DNA of 64,000 nt from the IMG/VR virus record IMGVR_UViG_3300044991_001407, positions 1 through 64,000 of that record. The stretch is one strand, 5' to 3'. A program made the position numbers and the translations under genes. Each line of letters starts with the position of its first letter. Positions within the stretch are counted from its first letter, which is position 1. The DNA is from a virus. The notes beneath the pieces are model-generated. The model was not told where the DNA came from. It made no database searches and saw nothing but the letters and a program-made list of their open reading frames with translations. Shown here piece after piece: positions 20,927-29,047 of this stretch.

Positions 20927-23900
20927 TTATAACCCCTGGTTTATTCCGTTGTAGCTTGTGAATGTTCTTGTCTCCACACCAGCGGCTTTCTGTTGTTTTG
21001 GAAGGACATTAACATTGTAACTCTTCATCATACTCTTAAACCATTCTTCTTCACCAACAAATGTGTCAACATTGATATTCACGGTGGATACGCTAGTTGA
21101 TCCACCACCGCTTGCGTATGATGGGGTTCCAGAAGGTGCTCTAAACTTTGATTGGTTAATGCTTTGCATTGTTCTTACACCCATGTTTCTTACAGCATCA
21201 GCGTTCACAACATATTCACCACCATGCAAGATTGCAGGAATTGCCATTGAAGGAGCGCCAGGAACATAACCACCTGTTTTAAAACGAGGAATATTTACAG
21301 CATTATAATCTCTCACACTAAGCATAGCTTTTAAGCCAGCAATATCGCCTGGGAGTAATGATCTATTTGCATAGGGGGTTTCATAAGACATAATTGATTG
21401 ATTTTGAACTCTTCCACTAATATCGTATGAATGTGGATGATCTAAATTAAACACATGACCCATTTCATGAATCAAAGTATCGGCTACTACACCAACTGGG
21501 TCTGTGAGTTTAGCAACCAGGAGACTAGCGTATTTGAACGGTGACATGTCTACAGATTCTCCTGAGTTAAGAGGATCCCCCTTAGTCCAATCAAGTATTT
21601 CTGGCGTTGGAATTCTTCTTACTAATTCTGCTGATTTTGCAAACACTGAATCAAATACACCTGGAAGAAGTGCAGCTGTGGAATTAGTAACCTCAGCTAA
21701 TTTACCCGCCCCATTCCAATTAACCCCCAACTCAGAAGTCATTCTTGGGCGAGGAACAGCATATCGCTCATTACTAGGGAAACTAAGGACACTCGCATGA
21801 GCCTCACTTCCATCATCTTCACTATATGGGTAAACACCTATCCCAAATCCATTTTGTTTTTTTGAATATTGATTTGTTATATATTCTAATCTAGCGTAGC
21901 TTGGACCTAGCTCAAATTCTGGTCCCTGCACGACATCTGCATTGATACCTAGGGCAGTTCCCCATGTATTAGCTGCTATCTTTAACGCCTTCTTTGCTGT
22001 GCGCATTGTATTTGGCAGTCCATCTACAAAAGTAGCTCTATGATTATGATATGCAATCATTTCAGATAGATTGTTTAAAACAATTTTTTTACCATCATTG
22101 CTATAGACTTCTGTCCAATCAGCACGATCTGATCTTGGATCACTGATAAGATTATATTCTTTACTATCAAAGTTAGATGACCCTGCATATTTATTTGGAC
22201 TCTTTATAAATGGAATGTGCTCAAGTATTTTACGAGTAGGCTCTCCTAGACCAGATAATGCCATTAATCTTTGTACATAATTAAGCCTCTTTGGCATTAT
22301 TTCATAATTTTCAACTTGTCTAGCAAGAGATGTATATTCCTTGCTCTTCAAGGTTTGAAGATACAACCCTTGCGCATCTTCCCAACCAGCACCAGCTCTT
22401 GGTACAGCATGCGTATTAGCCCAGTCAATAAACTCTTTTTGATAAGCCTTTCCTGCATTGTATGTCTCTTCGGTAGGTAGATATTTACGGAAAATATTCT
22501 TAGCTACACCAGGTGCTTTCCCAAGAAGTTTTGCAACACCATAACCTGCAAGAGACAGCCCTCCTGCCATAATAGATCCCTTCAGTGAAGTGTCGCCCTT
22601 AAATCCAGGAGCGGCTCCTGTGCTTGCAAGATAGTTTCCGAGTCTATTAGTTAAATTATATGTTGATCCAGTAGCAACAGCACCAGCAATAGGACCACCA
22701 AAACGAGTTGCAATCAAGTCAGCAGCAAGTGTAAGTCCACCCATTCCGAACTTAGTCATATTTGTCCAGTCATATTTTGGCTGAACATACCCAGCCTCTT
22801 CTCTCTCCAAACGAGCTTTACCTAGAGGAGTAGCCATTTGCATCTGACGCTTTGTAGCGGCAAAATATCTATCAATTGAGTCTGCAGACGGGGTGTTCAT
22901 TGAAGGATTTGTTACTGTTGGAACCCTGTCAGCAACAACTCTATTTCCAGACACACTTGGCTTAATTACAATCCTATCCGCACTTCCTCTTGTGCTTGAA
23001 GGATTTGCTCTTCCAACTCTATTTGCTTCCGACATATGGATAAGTTGTGCAGCCATTTCAGCAGTAGCATCATCTTTATAGACTCCTAAATTCTTACCGC
23101 TATTTATTGCAAACTTTATTGCTTGTTGATCACTTATAATTTTTCCATTAACAACTGTTGGAAGAAGCATTGTGCCACGATCTGTTCCAATACTGAGTGA
23201 CCTAACTGTGCTTACCCCGCCTTCACCTTTGATATTGTTTTTTACTACAGGTAGTTTATTAAGATTTATATTTCCTGGTACAACTGGCTTAACAACGGTT
23301 CCGTAGGGACCGTTTAATGTTCCGTCACCCTTCTTTGGAGCTATCGCCCCACTCCTCTTTGGTACTTGACCACCCTTAAGGAATCTTGGAAGAAGGTTGT
23401 TATTCATCTTATTCAAAGCGCCTATGCCAATTCTTGAAACCGCCTTCGCATTAAGAATGTATTCTCCACCATGAAGAAGTGCTGGTACACCTTCTTGTGT
23501 TGGTGCTGGGATGTATCCTTCTGGATACCCACTGTTTTGGTTCTGGGTTCTTGTCGGAATAATTCCACCCTTTGCTCTTGAAGTTGGCTTCAATGATGGG
23601 TTTGGAATAAAAGCTGGCTTAATTGGCTTTGCAGCAATAGCTGCCGTTGAAAGACCAGTTCCTACGGTGAATTGCTGATAGGTTAGTGGAGCGAGACCCT
23701 TAACCGTTCTTAGTGCGTTATTAGAAGTGAAAGCATCAGCCCTTCCAACATTAAGACCAGCTCCAGAAGCTGTGCTACCTGTTGTTCCACTACCGCCTCC
23801 ACCACCGCCAGCCGCAGCATCCTTTTGAGCCTCACCAGCAGCTTCTGCTGCTGCTTTAAGACCAAGCCATTTAAGAGTTGTTGCATCAATGTATCCACGC

Positions 23901-26900
23901 ATCTCTTCAAACAATTCTTTGTTAACAGAGACATCATTTCTTAGAGCATCTGTTATTGCTCTATTGCCATCAATAATTGCTTGCTTATAAACCTTTTCCC
24001 AGTTATCTTTGAACTTAGTTGTTGCTTCTGCGAACGGGGTGAGGAAGTCATCAGTTACAGATTTAACAATAGCTGTTGCTGATTCCGCAAAATTATCTTT
24101 GAGACCAGTTGTGACAAGACCAAATGAATCAATAACGGTTTGTTTCTTGTCTCCAAATACACCACCAATATCGGCAAGCATTCCAATTGTTACGCCAATA
24201 ACAGTATTCTCGCTAGTGTCTGAACCTAGACCATACTTTTCTTTTGCTACTAAGACTAGTTCATCAAGATTTGTACTAAATGCACCGACAACATCATTTG
24301 GCATCTTTGTATTAATAGTTGTAGCAAAGTTGGTAAACATCTTTTCAAACGCAGCACTGTTATCAGTTGCTGTTTGATTTGTGATGTTATAAAGCTCTCC
24401 AATTTGGGTCTTGTAATCTTCAATCGTTACTGGTGGGAACTTAGTGATAGTCTCAATAGATTCTTGGAACTTAACAATTGATTCATCAAAGAATTTCTGA
24501 GCCGCATCTTTTGCTTCATTAATAGCATCTTTAAGCGCATCAAGATTTTCTTTTGCAAGGTCTTTTGCACGACCTGATTCAAGCGAATTGAGATCTTGAT
24601 TAAACGATTTTGTTTGAGAAACCTGCTCAAGCTGGAGCATTCTTGCATCATCTGTGCGACCTTCATAAACAGCCAATGCATAGTTCCTACGGAACTGCTC
24701 ATCACTAAGGGCTTTGTCATCAAGCATCTTGCGCTTGTTGGCTTCAAACTCTTTTGTCTTTGTTAGTGACTCTTCGGCTTTTTCAAGCTTACCAAGCGTC
24801 TTAATCTGTACATCGTAAATCTTTAGAGCAGCATCTCTCTGCTTCTCAAGAGCCTTGGTTGATGCATCAACATACTTATCAATTGCATTCTTTAATTCAC
24901 CAGCAATGTAATTCTGCAGATCCTGAACTGCGCTCTTAATACCTTCCTTGAGCTTCTCACCAATCTTTCCAGATGGATCATTCTCTTCAAAGCCATCACC
25001 AGTAGCATTGGCAATAGCTTCACCAGTTTCTTCACCAATCTCTTCACCAGTATCTACAATCTTTTTCTTTCCGTTTTGAAGTGAGTGAGTGCTTTCTTTA
25101 ACACCAAGATCTGCGCCTTTCTTCAAACCACTCTTGATAGTATTTGCTATTCCATCAATTGCCTTGCCATAAAGATTTACTCCGCCATCAACCAATCCCT
25201 TAGCGCCATCAGCAAGAGCGTCAATAGCACCACTAGCAGCATCGGCTCCAGCATCAACCATCCCATACATTCCGTCAATAGTGTCATTCATGCCATCACT
25301 TATTGCACTGAACCATCCCATACCTGGGATCTTGCTAAGCCAACTAAAACCCTTTGCAACTGCTTTTGGTATTGCTGTGAGTGATGTAAGCATCAATTTA
25401 ACGCCTAGGGCAATAACTTTTACAAGACCCTTCATTAAACCAGCAAATATGGTGATAACTGCTTTTACTATAAAGCCAGCAACCTTGATAAGAACTTTCA
25501 TTACTGCTTGCCATATACTTACAAGCACTTCTGCGACTCTGGCAAAGGCTGCTGTTAAGAACTTGAGTGCGTCACCCCAATTTCCCTTGAACATGGAAAC
25601 AACAGCCATAACAATATTGACCACTGCGTACAGATATGGTTTGATAATATTTTCAACAAGCGATTTAAACGCTTGTGCAACCATTTGCACAACCTTAACG
25701 AATTGTCTAAATATTGTAACAAGTCCATTAACAGAGCCCTCTGTTCCCTTTGCTCCACCACCAAACTGAGCAAACAAGTCTTGAATTGGTCTTGTTATTT
25801 CCATCAATGCTTTTTTAATAACACCGAAAGCAAATGCAAGACCTCTCAGTGGTCCAGCCGCTTTTTCTTTGAACATTCCAAAGTTTTTAACAACAAGCAT
25901 TACTGCTACACCGATACCGAGAACAATTGCTCCAATACCAGTAGCAAGCATTGTCATTCTGAATATCTTCATTGCAAGATCTGCAAGTTTTACATTTGTA
26001 ACAAATCCCTTAATAGCAACACCCAGTTTTCTGAATGCGCCTGGACCTGCTAGACCAAGTGTTGCTTGCTGAGCTTCAAGAGCCGCTATAGCACCCTTAG
26101 CACCACTAACACCAGCTTTAAATTGTTTAATCGGTCTTAGAGCTTCTACAAAACCTTTGCCAAGATTTGCTGTCTTGCTCGTTGTTGCAAAATCTTTAAT
26201 ACCACCGACAGCTCTTTGAGCACGAAGTTGTGTTTGCAATCTTGCACCTTGCATACCACCACCAGCAAGGATATTTGCTTGATCTTCTGCTGTTCCGAGG
26301 AGTCTTCTTGTTGCTGATACTCTTCCACCAGTAAGTCGTGACAGCACCCCTCTTGTGCGAGTTGGTCGTGTTGGACCAACATCATCAAGAAGCTCATTAC
26401 CGCCTTGGAAAAAACGGCTTCCTAATTTATCTGTAACAATACCTTTAGCCTGATAGAATGGATCTCTATCAGCTACAAGATTTTGTCTTGCTGCTCTTGC
26501 AAGTCTTGCAGCAGAATTTGCTCTTCCAGCAGCAAGAGCATTTGGAACACTTGCAACTTTTGCAGAGTTTGTGAGTTGATATGCATACTGAGCTGGGGTT
26601 AGTGCTCTACCAGCAGCAATTTTATTAGAAATAGTTCTACTCTTGAAAAAATCAGTTTTTGTTGCACCAGTATTTCTTGACAAAAATTCTTTTAGCTGAT
26701 CTTTTTGAGTAAGCTTGCCTTTTATTGAAGGAGATAGAAGTGCTGGATCATAAGTTTTTCTTGGTGCTTGGAAATTACTCATTGCTGCTTGAGCAGTTGC
26801 TTGTGCTTCACCAAGATCTGGTACTAATTTTTTAGCCAATGATGACTGAACAATGGTGCTATAGAGGGATTTTACTTTTCCATTAGCTAATGCAGCAGCT

Positions 26901-29047
26901 TCTCCTAAACCAGCAAAACCACCAGATGCTGATGTGAGTTTAGGGAATAGACCAGTAAGTGCTCTACCCAAAACACCCATTGATGCCTGAATCGTACCAA
27001 TACCAAGAACTATTGGACCAAGAACTGCCAGAAACGCAAGGAAGCCAAGAATCACTTTGGATATATTTTGTCTAGTAGCCTCGGACAGTGATTGCCATTT
27101 TTCATAAAACACCTGAATTTTGTCAGCCAAACTTTTCAATGTTGGACCAATCGTCTTCATCAAATCCGCAGCAAAAAGCTTAAAGGAGTTTTTAATTTTC
27201 TGAACAGCTACTTCAAGCGAACCGAGTGACTGCTCCAATTCCATATCAGCAACTTGTTGAGCATTTGATGCACCAGCAAGCTCAACGAGCATTGCACGAG
27301 CAGACTCTGTTTTTGCTGTACCGATAATATCAATTCCTTCATTTTGTTTCTTCTGAACGACAACATCGGCAACTGCCTTTCTTACTTCTTTAGCTGTTTT
27401 GATTTCAGCAGCAGATACTTTTCTAAAACCCTCAACCATCTGTCCAGATTGAGCAGTTGCAATTCTTGCAATAATTCCAATATCTTTAAAGTTATTTATC
27501 GTTACTGGAAGCGCTGTGCCATTTAATTGGTTAAATTTACTTAACGCACCCTCTGCGGTGCTTGCAAGAATTGCTTCTGATGTACCAGCACTTCTTGTAG
27601 CCCTGTTGAGTTCTTTATTGAATTGCGCCATCTGCTGAATGGCGATGTACATTCTTGGTCCTTGACGCTTCTCAAAGATTTCAGACATAAGTTTAAGAGC
27701 ACCCTCTGCTCCAGCAGAAGTTGACTGAACCTTGTCAAACACATCAACGATAGCCTGAAGACCAGTCAGACCAGTTTTTGTTGTTTGATTAAAAATATTT
27801 TGTGTGTCTGATGCAACTCCATATTGCTTAGCAAGACTTGCTAACAATTCTGTGTTTTGCTTAGTTGGACTAATTGCTCTTTGTAATGAAACTTTAATTG
27901 AGTTTGCAGAAGCACCAACATCAAGACCAGCAGCTTTCATAGGAGCAAGCAATGCTGCTGCTTCTGTCATTGACAAACCAAAACTCACTGCCATTGAACC
28001 TAGTTCTGGAAGTGACTCAGACAAATCTTTTAGAGTTAGCGCCGTGACATTTTCAATATTGTTAAACATATTGAGCTGTGTTTTAGCAGCACCAATAGCT
28101 CTTGCTTCACGCTCTCTTGCATCGGTTAACTTATCAAAAGCACCAGATGCCTCAAGGGCTCTAACTGAGTTGAAGTACAAAGCTTGAGACAGATCTTGTG
28201 CGCCAGCGGCATCCATGTTACCGAGTTTTTCAGTAACAAGTGTTAACTCCGTGAGTGCTACAATGTTTTCATTAGCGCTAATTCCCAATTCAGCAAAATC
28301 TGTTGCAAGACCAATTACAAGATCTTTTGATACACCAAATTTATTACTTAAACTAGTTAATCCCGATTCAAGAGCCTTGAATGAATTAACCATTTTGTTA
28401 ATAGCAGCCTGACGATCTGCACCACCAAGACCCTTGCCAAGCTTTTGATCAGCTTGTTCAGCTGTCATTGCAACGCCTTCAAGAACCTTTGTTAACCTTA
28501 CAAGAGCAGCATCAACTTTAATTAAACTTTGCAGACCAGTTCTGCCAAACAGCAATAGTGGTGCTGTAAGGTTAATCATCAAGCTTCTACCAACGAACTG
28601 GGCATCCTTACCCATCTTCTGGAGTTTCAGTGAGATGTTAGAAAGGTCTGATCCAAATGATCTAATTCTTAAACCACGAAGTGTTGTTGAAAACGCCTTG
28701 AGTTGATTTTGAGTAAAAGTTAGCTCTTTACCAAGTTTTGTTGTAGGACCACCAGCCTTTAATATTGCTAGGTTATAGTTCTGAATATTAGAACGGAGCC
28801 GCTTACTTTCTTCAGAAAGAGCAGCCTGGTTTGCCTTTAGTTCTTTTAAGCTATTAGCGTGTTGATTAACACCTTTGCTCGTGATGCCTAATGCTTTATT
28901 GACAGCTTTAGCATGGCTATCCAGTGCCCTCATTGGCACTGTTACACCCTTTAGGTTAAGAGCAAGATTTCGTACAGATGCGCTTAAATTAGCGACATCC
29001 TTAACACCCGTAGTATGTACGCTAATTATTAGATCTACATCAGACAT
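20927..29047 (-). CDS. Tape measure protein with metzincin-like protease domain
   Basis: A 2706-residue tape measure. The N-terminal 650 residues match phage TP901-type tape measures (LTAPLLLFGRTGLQSLIKVD, GLATDFAELGISANEN, PMKAAGLDVGASANSIKVSL). Hydrophobic segments lie near 655-690 and 1035-1065 and between 1110 and 1240. A long charged coiled coil covers about 1380-1560. A Gly/Ser linker is near 1770, then two LHGGEY motifs, and from about 2340 to 2580 a zinc-protease-like domain with HEMGHVFNLDH (H2527, E2528, H2531, H2537) and a Met-turn SIMSY at 2551-2555. The start has no Shine-Dalgarno; TATATT lies nine bases upstream. Confidence 0.93.
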   Translation of the reverse strand: MSDVDLIISVHTTGVKDVANLSASVRNLALNLKGVTVPMRALDSHAKAVNKALGITSKGVNQHANSLKELKANQAALSEESKRLRSNIQNYNLAILKAGGPTTKLGKELTFTQNQLKAFSTTLRGLRIRSFGSDLSNISLKLQKMGKDAQFVGRSLMINLTAPLLLFGRTGLQSLIKVDAALVRLTKVLEGVAMTAEQADQKLGKGLGGADRQAAINKMVNSFKALESGLTSLSNKFGVSKDLVIGLATDFAELGISANENIVALTELTLVTEKLGNMDAAGAQDLSQALYFNSVRALEASGAFDKLTDAREREARAIGAAKTQLNMFNNIENVTALTLKDLSESLPELGSMAVSFGLSMTEAAALLAPMKAAGLDVGASANSIKVSLQRAISPTKQNTELLASLAKQYGVASDTQNIFNQTTKTGLTGLQAIVDVFDKVQSTSAGAEGALKLMSEIFEKRQGPRMYIAIQQMAQFNKELNRATRSAGTSEAILASTAEGALSKFNQLNGTALPVTINNFKDIGIIARIATAQSGQMVEGFRKVSAAEIKTAKEVRKAVADVVVQKKQNEGIDIIGTAKTESARAMLVELAGASNAQQVADMELEQSLGSLEVAVQKIKNSFKLFAADLMKTIGPTLKSLADKIQVFYEKWQSLSEATRQNISKVILGFLAFLAVLGPIVLGIGTIQASMGVLGRALTGLFPKLTSASGGFAGLGEAAALANGKVKSLYSTIVQSSLAKKLVPDLGEAQATAQAAMSNFQAPRKTYDPALLSPSIKGKLTQKDQLKEFLSRNTGATKTDFFKSRTISNKIAAGRALTPAQYAYQLTNSAKVASVPNALAAGRANSAARLARAARQNLVADRDPFYQAKGIVTDKLGSRFFQGGNELLDDVGPTRPTRTRGVLSRLTGGRVSATRRLLGTAEDQANILAGGGMQGARLQTQLRAQRAVGGIKDFATTSKTANLGKGFVEALRPIKQFKAGVSGAKGAIAALEAQQATLGLAGPGAFRKLGVAIKGFVTNVKLADLAMKIFRMTMLATGIGAIVLGIGVAVMLVVKNFGMFKEKAAGPLRGLAFAFGVIKKALMEITRPIQDLFAQFGGGAKGTEGSVNGLVTIFRQFVKVVQMVAQAFKSLVENIIKPYLYAVVNIVMAVVSMFKGNWGDALKFLTAAFARVAEVLVSIWQAVMKVLIKVAGFIVKAVITIFAGLMKGLVKVIALGVKLMLTSLTAIPKAVAKGFSWLSKIPGMGWFSAISDGMNDTIDGMYGMVDAGADAASGAIDALADGAKGLVDGGVNLYGKAIDGIANTIKSGLKKGADLGVKESTHSLQNGKKKIVDTGEEIGEETGEAIANATGDGFEENDPSGKIGEKLKEGIKSAVQDLQNYIAGELKNAIDKYVDASTKALEKQRDAALKIYDVQIKTLGKLEKAEESLTKTKEFEANKRKMLDDKALSDEQFRRNYALAVYEGRTDDARMLQLEQVSQTKSFNQDLNSLESGRAKDLAKENLDALKDAINEAKDAAQKFFDESIVKFQESIETITKFPPVTIEDYKTQIGELYNITNQTATDNSAAFEKMFTNFATTINTKMPNDVVGAFSTNLDELVLVAKEKYGLGSDTSENTVIGVTIGMLADIGGVFGDKKQTVIDSFGLVTTGLKDNFAESATAIVKSVTDDFLTPFAEATTKFKDNWEKVYKQAIIDGNRAITDALRNDVSVNKELFEEMRGYIDATTLKWLGLKAAAEAAGEAQKDAAAGGGGGGSGTTGSTASGAGLNVGRADAFTSNNALRTVKGLAPLTYQQFTVGTGLSTAAIAAKPIKPAFIPNPSLKPTSRAKGGIIPTRTQNQNSGYPEGYIPAPTQEGVPALLHGGEYILNAKAVSRIGIGALNKMNNNLLPRFLKGGQVPKRSGAIAPKKGDGTLNGPYGTVVKPVVPGNINLNKLPVVKNNIKGEGGVSTVRSLSIGTDRGTMLLPTVVNGKIISDQQAIKFAINSGKNLGVYKDDATAEMAAQLIHMSEANRVGRANPSSTRGSADRIVIKPSVSGNRVVADRVPTVTNPSMNTPSADSIDRYFAATKRQMQMATPLGKARLEREEAGYVQPKYDWTNMTKFGMGGLTLAADLIATRFGGPIAGAVATGSTYNLTNRLGNYLASTGAAPGFKGDTSLKGSIMAGGLSLAGYGVAKLLGKAPGVAKNIFRKYLPTEETYNAGKAYQKEFIDWANTHAVPRAGAGWEDAQGLYLQTLKSKEYTSLARQVENYEIMPKRLNYVQRLMALSGLGEPTRKILEHIPFIKSPNKYAGSSNFDSKEYNLISDPRSDRADWTEVYSNDGKKIVLNNLSEMIAYHNHRATFVDGLPNTMRTAKKALKIAANTWGTALGINADVVQGPEFELGPSYARLEYITNQYSKKQNGFGIGVYPYSEDDGSEAHASVLSFPSNERYAVPRPRMTSELGVNWNGAGKLAEVTNSTAALLPGVFDSVFAKSAELVRRIPTPEILDWTKGDPLNSGESVDMSPFKYASLLVAKLTDPVGVVADTLIHEMGHVFNLDHPHSYDISGRVQNQSIMSYETPYANRSLLPGDIAGLKAMLSVRDYNAVNIPRFKTGGYVPGAPSMAIPAILHGGEYVVNADAVRNMGVRTMQSINQSKFRAPSGTPSYASGGGSTSVSTVNINVDTFVGEEEWFKSMMKSYNVNVLPKQQKAAGVETRTFTSYNGINQGL
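21308..22030 (-). other. Metzincin-like protease domain in the tape measure
   Basis: Encodes roughly residues 2340-2580. The zinc motif is H-E-x-x-H-x-x-N-x-x-H at 21469-21437, with asparagine where metzincins usually have glycine, and the Met-turn S-I-M-S-Y about 15 residues further on, as in matrixins and pappalysins. The stretch from 2340 has a possible active-site edge strand (YARLEYITN). Boundaries are approximate. Confidence 0.75.

Follow-up and report, generated by a model that had tools for sequence, protein, structure and literature searches.

A predicted metzincin-type protease in an exchangeable cassette of a phage tape measure protein

The window analysed here, which comprises positions 1 to 64,000 (64,000 nucleotides) of the 95,037-base IMG/VR virus record IMGVR_UViG_3300044991_001407, carries on its minus strand a long ORF (20927..29047) that matched PhageMin_Tail (E 1.5e-8) and 13 PHROG tape-measure families (best 2e-36) in profile searches. 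Further tail proteins come after this ORF, and portal and prohead-protease-like genes lie farther upstream within the window, so that both profiles and tail-gene context identify its product as a phage tape measure protein. Because the N-terminal part of this protein resembles the tape measure proteins of Gordonia, Streptomyces, Tsukamurella and Rhodococcus phages, the phage likely has an actinobacterial host. Cysteine was absent from all 14 related tape measure proteins checked, at sizes of up to 3764 residues, which would suit an extended, refoldable chain. The features of the gene are listed below, in the order in which they are translated after the ORF itself.

20927..29047, minus strand: tape measure protein, 2706 aa, no cysteine
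23438..23476, minus strand: first HGGEYxxNAxAV repeat, residues 1858-1870
23360..23383, minus strand: left boundary motif FLKGGQVP, a copy of FxxGGxVP, residues 1889-1896
21284..23346, minus strand: exchangeable cassette, residues ~1901-2588 (688 residues), from DNA comparison of the window with locus L011
21308..22495, minus strand: conserved metzincin module, residues 2185-2580, common to L017 and L046 (42%) and L033 (46%)
21314..22069, minus strand: predicted catalytic domain, residues 2327-2578, from the AlphaFold element order
21437..21469, minus strand: HEMGHVFNLDH, residues 2527-2537, with presumed zinc ligands H2527, H2531 and H2537 and presumed catalytic E2528
21383..21397, minus strand: SIMSY Met-turn, residues 2551-2555 (M2553 codon at 21389-21391), SIM-x-Y-E being invariant in homologues
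21320..21358, minus strand: helix after the Met-turn, LLPGDIAGLKAML, residues 2564-2576, LLPGDIAG being invariant
20930..21289, minus strand: conserved C-terminal tail, residues 2587-2706, kept whatever the cassette
21260..21283, minus strand: right boundary motif FKTGGYVP, a copy of FxxGGxVP, residues 2589-2596
21191..21229, minus strand: second HGGEYxxNAxAV repeat, residues 2607-2619

The initial annotation had pointed out HEMGHVFNLDH and, shortly after it, SIMSY in this 2706-residue protein, and both were found as described. The former agrees with the metzincin clan pattern HExxHxx(G/N)xxH/D, as do its counterparts in the homologues, and M2553 sits 16 residues past the third histidine (H2537), on the side expected of a Met-turn, and is invariant in the homologues. 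Y2555 presumably takes the position of the tyrosine zinc ligand of serralysins and astacins. HEMGHVFNLDH is the sole HExxHxxxxxH among window ORFs of at least 100 aa; with only 16 histidines in the tape measure protein, composition predicts about 2.6e-5 occurrences, and none of 20,000 shuffles of the protein contained one. Homologues in IMG/VR were found in L001 and L002 (about 100% identical), in L017 and L046 (42% over the module) and in L033 (46%). The core of the diverged homologues is 41-51% identical, yet HE, HxFNLDHPHxY, SIMxYE and LLPGDIAG are invariant. The limits first drawn for the domain, 21308-22030 (residues 2340-2580), proved too narrow, as the conserved unit spans residues ~2185-2580 and the cassette residues ~1901-2588. 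Nor is the asparagine that replaces the usual motif glycine an anomaly, as had been supposed, since four viral-contig proteins with HExGHxFNLxH and the same replacement (L032, L034, L037 and L039) match Peptidase_M43 above cut-off and are thus pappalysin-type metzincins by Pfam.

In profile searches the domain reached the curated cut-off of no family. In Pfam, the motif received only sub-threshold Reprolysin matches (best Reprolysin_5, 13.8 bits against a cut-off of 27), and the best NCBIfam match was to serralysin (E 0.0099, score 15.1 against a cut-off of 500), covering only model positions 163-192 of 462. Above-cut-off matches of this kind test for named families and form no part of the structural definition of the metzincin clan. 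When the 63-residue core was compared with the PDB by sequence, all 20 matches were metzincins (serralysins, ADAM8 and ADAMTS-1, the last of which we take to have asparagine at the motif glycine position as well), each of them weak at E 0.24 or worse. A profile built from four homologues yielded 28 PDB matches, every one a named protease and nearly all known metzincins, although again weak (best E 0.07), and the whole module gave no relevant PDB match by sequence, metzincins being found with the core only. Comparison with a profile of true M43 proteins reached a probability of 90% across just 20 columns, so that this likeness is confined to the motif. A tblastn search of the domain against 50,697 cultured-phage records returned no match, and a few exact peptide patterns, which diverged relatives could escape, gave no confirmed match in bacterial genomes.

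The AlphaFold model of the core, behind which stood an alignment of only four sequences, reached a pLDDT of 60 and a pTM of 0.63, with pLDDT mostly 65-90 for residues ~2327-2425, 60-73 at the HExxH helix and below 50 in an insertion and at the Met-turn. From the HExxH helix to the Met-turn, most residues score below 70. In this modest model, the elements run strand, helix A, four strands, HExxH helix, Met-turn and helix, as in metzincins, except that a segment is inserted ahead of the HExxH helix. In fold searches with this and with a longer model, all E-values stayed above 1e-3. For the longer model, karilysin (0.021) headed the ranking before archaemetzincin (0.026), MMP-13 ranked near the top and MMPs made up many of the top 50; with the core model, hexosaminidases, which are not metzincins, came first and MMPs appeared within the top ten; and in a viral fold library a phage M10-domain protein ranked first (0.012), none of these matches being significant. 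The domain fits no named metzincin family, since the tape measure protein has no cysteine for the switch of the MMP (M10A) prodomain or for the disulfides that stabilise ADAM/ADAMTS (M12B) domains, and its alignment to the serralysin (M10B) family model extends over just 30 positions. The original assignment as a metzincin-like protease is supported by motif, homologue conservation and the element order of a modest model, and it lacks a family profile at cut-off and a significant fold match; on this balance we consider it very probable that the domain is metzincin-type.

The domain might also be a relic that kept its zinc site and now acts as a structural spacer or binding module, in a cassette whose main effect would be to vary the length of the tail or the contact with the host. 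We regard this as quite improbable, because the motifs named above are invariant amid 41-51% identity and dN/dS is about 0.3-0.5 over longer distances, even if the fold is weakly supported, tail length is set by tape measure length (PMC1796659), and the L017 and L046 cassettes differ by few changes with about equal dN (0.025) and dS (0.023). The latter equality may reflect either recent exchange or relaxed selection.

The borders of the cassette became apparent from DNA comparison of the window with L011, in which identity was 95.7% up to codon 1901, absent from there to codon 2588, and 97.4% from codon 2589 onwards for 3.5 kb. The right border (codons 2586-2590) was the same in L013, L021, L018, L020, L048 and L052, and the left border lay at ~1889-1901 in these relatives, or later (~2027, ~2157) where sub-blocks are common. 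Both junctions fall at FxxGGxVP, of which the cassette-free L028 has a single copy (FAKGGYVP) between its two HGGEY/QGGDY motifs. The C-terminal tail is 68-100% identical among relatives and 47% identical in L033. A block running from VRSLSIGTDRG to LLPTVVNGK (window residues ~1940-2010, 23018-23230) is common to L013 and missing from L017 and L011, which makes the cassettes seem assembled from sub-blocks.

Among the related loci, at least four cassette types were distinguished besides the metzincin type, next to an empty slot:

Metzincin cassette: window, L001, L002, L017, L046, L033
Type B: L011, L013, L021 and identical copies, L055
Type C: L018, L020
Type D: L048 and identical copies, L053
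Type E: L052, and L047 in part
No cassette: L024, L025, L027, L028, L029

Near-identical phages thus differ by replacement of the cassette, and an empty-slot form, with tape measure proteins of 1994 residues, occurs naturally. For example, L048 and L052 are 95.6% identical across 1,874 residues and carry different cassettes of ~1,700 residues each. The window's cassette is present in three assemblies (window, L001 and L002), and those of L021 and L048 each recur in several contigs, for which reason an assembly chimera was rejected. The protease has a history of its own, since it is 46% identical on the dissimilar scaffold of L033 (no significant blastp similarity up to window residue 1361 and 29% identity beyond it, L033 being 5′-truncated and its scaffold only partly seen) and 42% identical in L017, where the scaffold is 67% identical to that of the window. 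These values show that the predicted protease has moved between tape measure proteins. In L019, a scaffold 96-98% identical to those of L018 and L020 is joined to a cassette start 98% identical to that of L017, the contig stopping before the catalytic region. The cassettes of L017 and L046 are 95% identical, and the first 1,000 residues of their scaffolds 81%.

The same comparison bears on the initial suggestion that the protease serves self-processing during DNA injection. A protease that cleaves the tape measure or a neighbouring tail protein, at assembly or injection, would agree with its location in cis and with the frequent processing of tape measure proteins (PMC1796659). However, relatives with nearly the same scaffold exist without the domain, and the tail genes downstream are 97% identical in L011, whose cassette is without the protease motif. 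Self-processing is thereby disfavoured, and we consider a virion-maturation role highly improbable.

Type D cassettes contain a HipA-kinase-like domain (L048 residues 2170-2345, L053 residues 2288-2463) related (E 2e-23 to 2e-27) to gp78 of Gordonia phage Forza, as well as to giant proteins from further phages, among them a 3289-residue protein of lake actinophage DSL-LC01. The Forza homologue, which is encoded beside the portal gene and near an annotated ADP-ribosyltransferase, matches HipA_2 weakly (E 0.0075). Gordonia phages also have head-region proteins related to the type D domain. Profile searches gave no confident match for the enzymatic part of cassettes B, C and E, and the pieces of these cassettes that were searched had no phage match; because no function is assigned to them, the slot could serve another purpose. 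The cassettes of L018, L020, L055 and L011 have Gly-rich segments in their early part; glycine-zipper segments at the cassette start of the first three match DUF6861, above cut-off in L055.

That this slot holds a protease-like domain here, and quite different domains or nothing in near-identical phages, suggests a second role for the tape measure protein, as a carrier of exchangeable payloads that are set free at DNA injection. A constant scaffold (residues 1 to ~1896 and 2589-2706) would then frame a payload slot flanked by FxxGGxVP, which in this phage holds the predicted metzincin-type zinc metalloprotease. Tape measure proteins exit the tail at injection. Packed in extended form inside the tail tube, whose lumen is presumably too narrow for a folded protease, the protein would leave at DNA injection, and the cassette would fold once released. 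A similar course has been proposed for bacterial contractile injection systems (CISs), in which C-terminal domains of the tape-measure-like kind would adapt to the tube and take up their fold when they have been ejected (PMC13277306). The released protease would cleave a host protein and thereby favour infection, its target presumably being located in the cytoplasm or at the membrane and not in the wall. As a kinase needs ATP, the type D cassette points to the cytoplasm, and by analogy, admittedly a weak step, the protease may act there too. The predicted metzincin-type protease is probably active as one of several interchangeable payloads, likely on host proteins; the full course from scaffold and slot to folding after release and cleavage at infection is one that we somewhat favour.

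Digestion of a host surface protein, as initially proposed, is possible as well. The metzincin would in that case act in envelope penetration, like the muralytic domains of tape measures: it would digest a protein that lies at the surface, is anchored in the wall or is of the S-layer type (or would cut a peptide cross-link) and so open the tail's way to the membrane. Most characterised metzincins are extracellular, which fits such a role, and the tape measure protein of L033 has, ahead of the protease, a segment (L033:5300-6011) that matches PF06737, Transglycosylase-like (Rpf-type), weakly and below cut-off (E 7.6e-4). There is also precedent in the tape measure of TM4, the peptidoglycan-hydrolase motif of which aids the infection of stationary cells (PMC1796659). 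We nevertheless consider envelope penetration unlikely, given that the other cassettes have no wall-hydrolase profile above cut-off, that one of them is kinase-like, and that phages with nearly the same scaffold manage without the domain.

In its broadest form, the payload reading would make the tape measure of this phage group a dedicated polymorphic effector-delivery protein, in which a constant ruler of the tail has a slot for host-targeting enzymes (metzincin, HipA-like kinase and others), and the viral equivalent of those bacterial CIS effectors that derive from tape measures; we hold this to be evenly balanced. As in polymorphic toxins, a constant delivery part is combined with a variable payload, which is here internal and not terminal. 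An immunity gene swapped together with the payload was not found in the window and L011, which remain near-identical over the 3.5 kb from the right border despite their different cassettes. Little is known of what tape measure proteins do once they have left the tail, and near-identical phages that differ in the cassette, together with the natural cassette-free form, make a role after exit testable. The cassette series also suggests an origin for the payload logic of injection machines that derive from phage tails.

In the open-access literature, we found no paper on a metzincin within a tape measure protein and no metzincin payload among effectors of the tape-measure type. Serralysins (M10B) share HExGHxxxLxHPxxY and the MxY Met-turn and gave the best NCBIfam match, whereas the window domain has asparagine for glycine, scores 15 against a cut-off of 500 and sits in a tape measure protein. 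Motif 3 and the Rpf-like motif 1 of TM4 are likewise enzyme domains embedded in a mycobacteriophage tape measure, motif 3 being dispensable for viability; unlike the present domain, it is a peptidoglycan hydrolase and no zinc protease, and we have not seen swapping inside one scaffold described (PMC1796659). The MuF polymorphic toxins of temperate phages (PMC5576092) also combine a phage structural protein with polymorphic effector domains and proposed host delivery, but MuF belongs to the DNA packaging module, whereas here the slot is internal to a tail protein, and the flanks that were compared with L011 contain no gene linked to the cassette. The T6SS effector Tde1 and prophage tape measure C-termini (PMC10240207) carry a glycine-zipper translocation segment comparable to the Gly-rich cassette starts of L018, L020, L055 and L011, in contrast to the window's own cassette with its few GxxxG. 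Sle1-type CIS effectors of Actinobacteria (PMC13277306) similarly join a tape-measure-related coiled-coil N-terminus to divergent, exchangeable functional C-terminal domains, and Sle1 is ejected from a phage-tail-like particle; those systems are bacterial CISs, however, whereas the carrier here is the tape measure of a phage with head genes, and its payload is internal, with a conserved tail after it. The closest prior idea is thus that of reconfigurable tape-measure-like effectors, put forward for bacterial CISs (PMC13277306).
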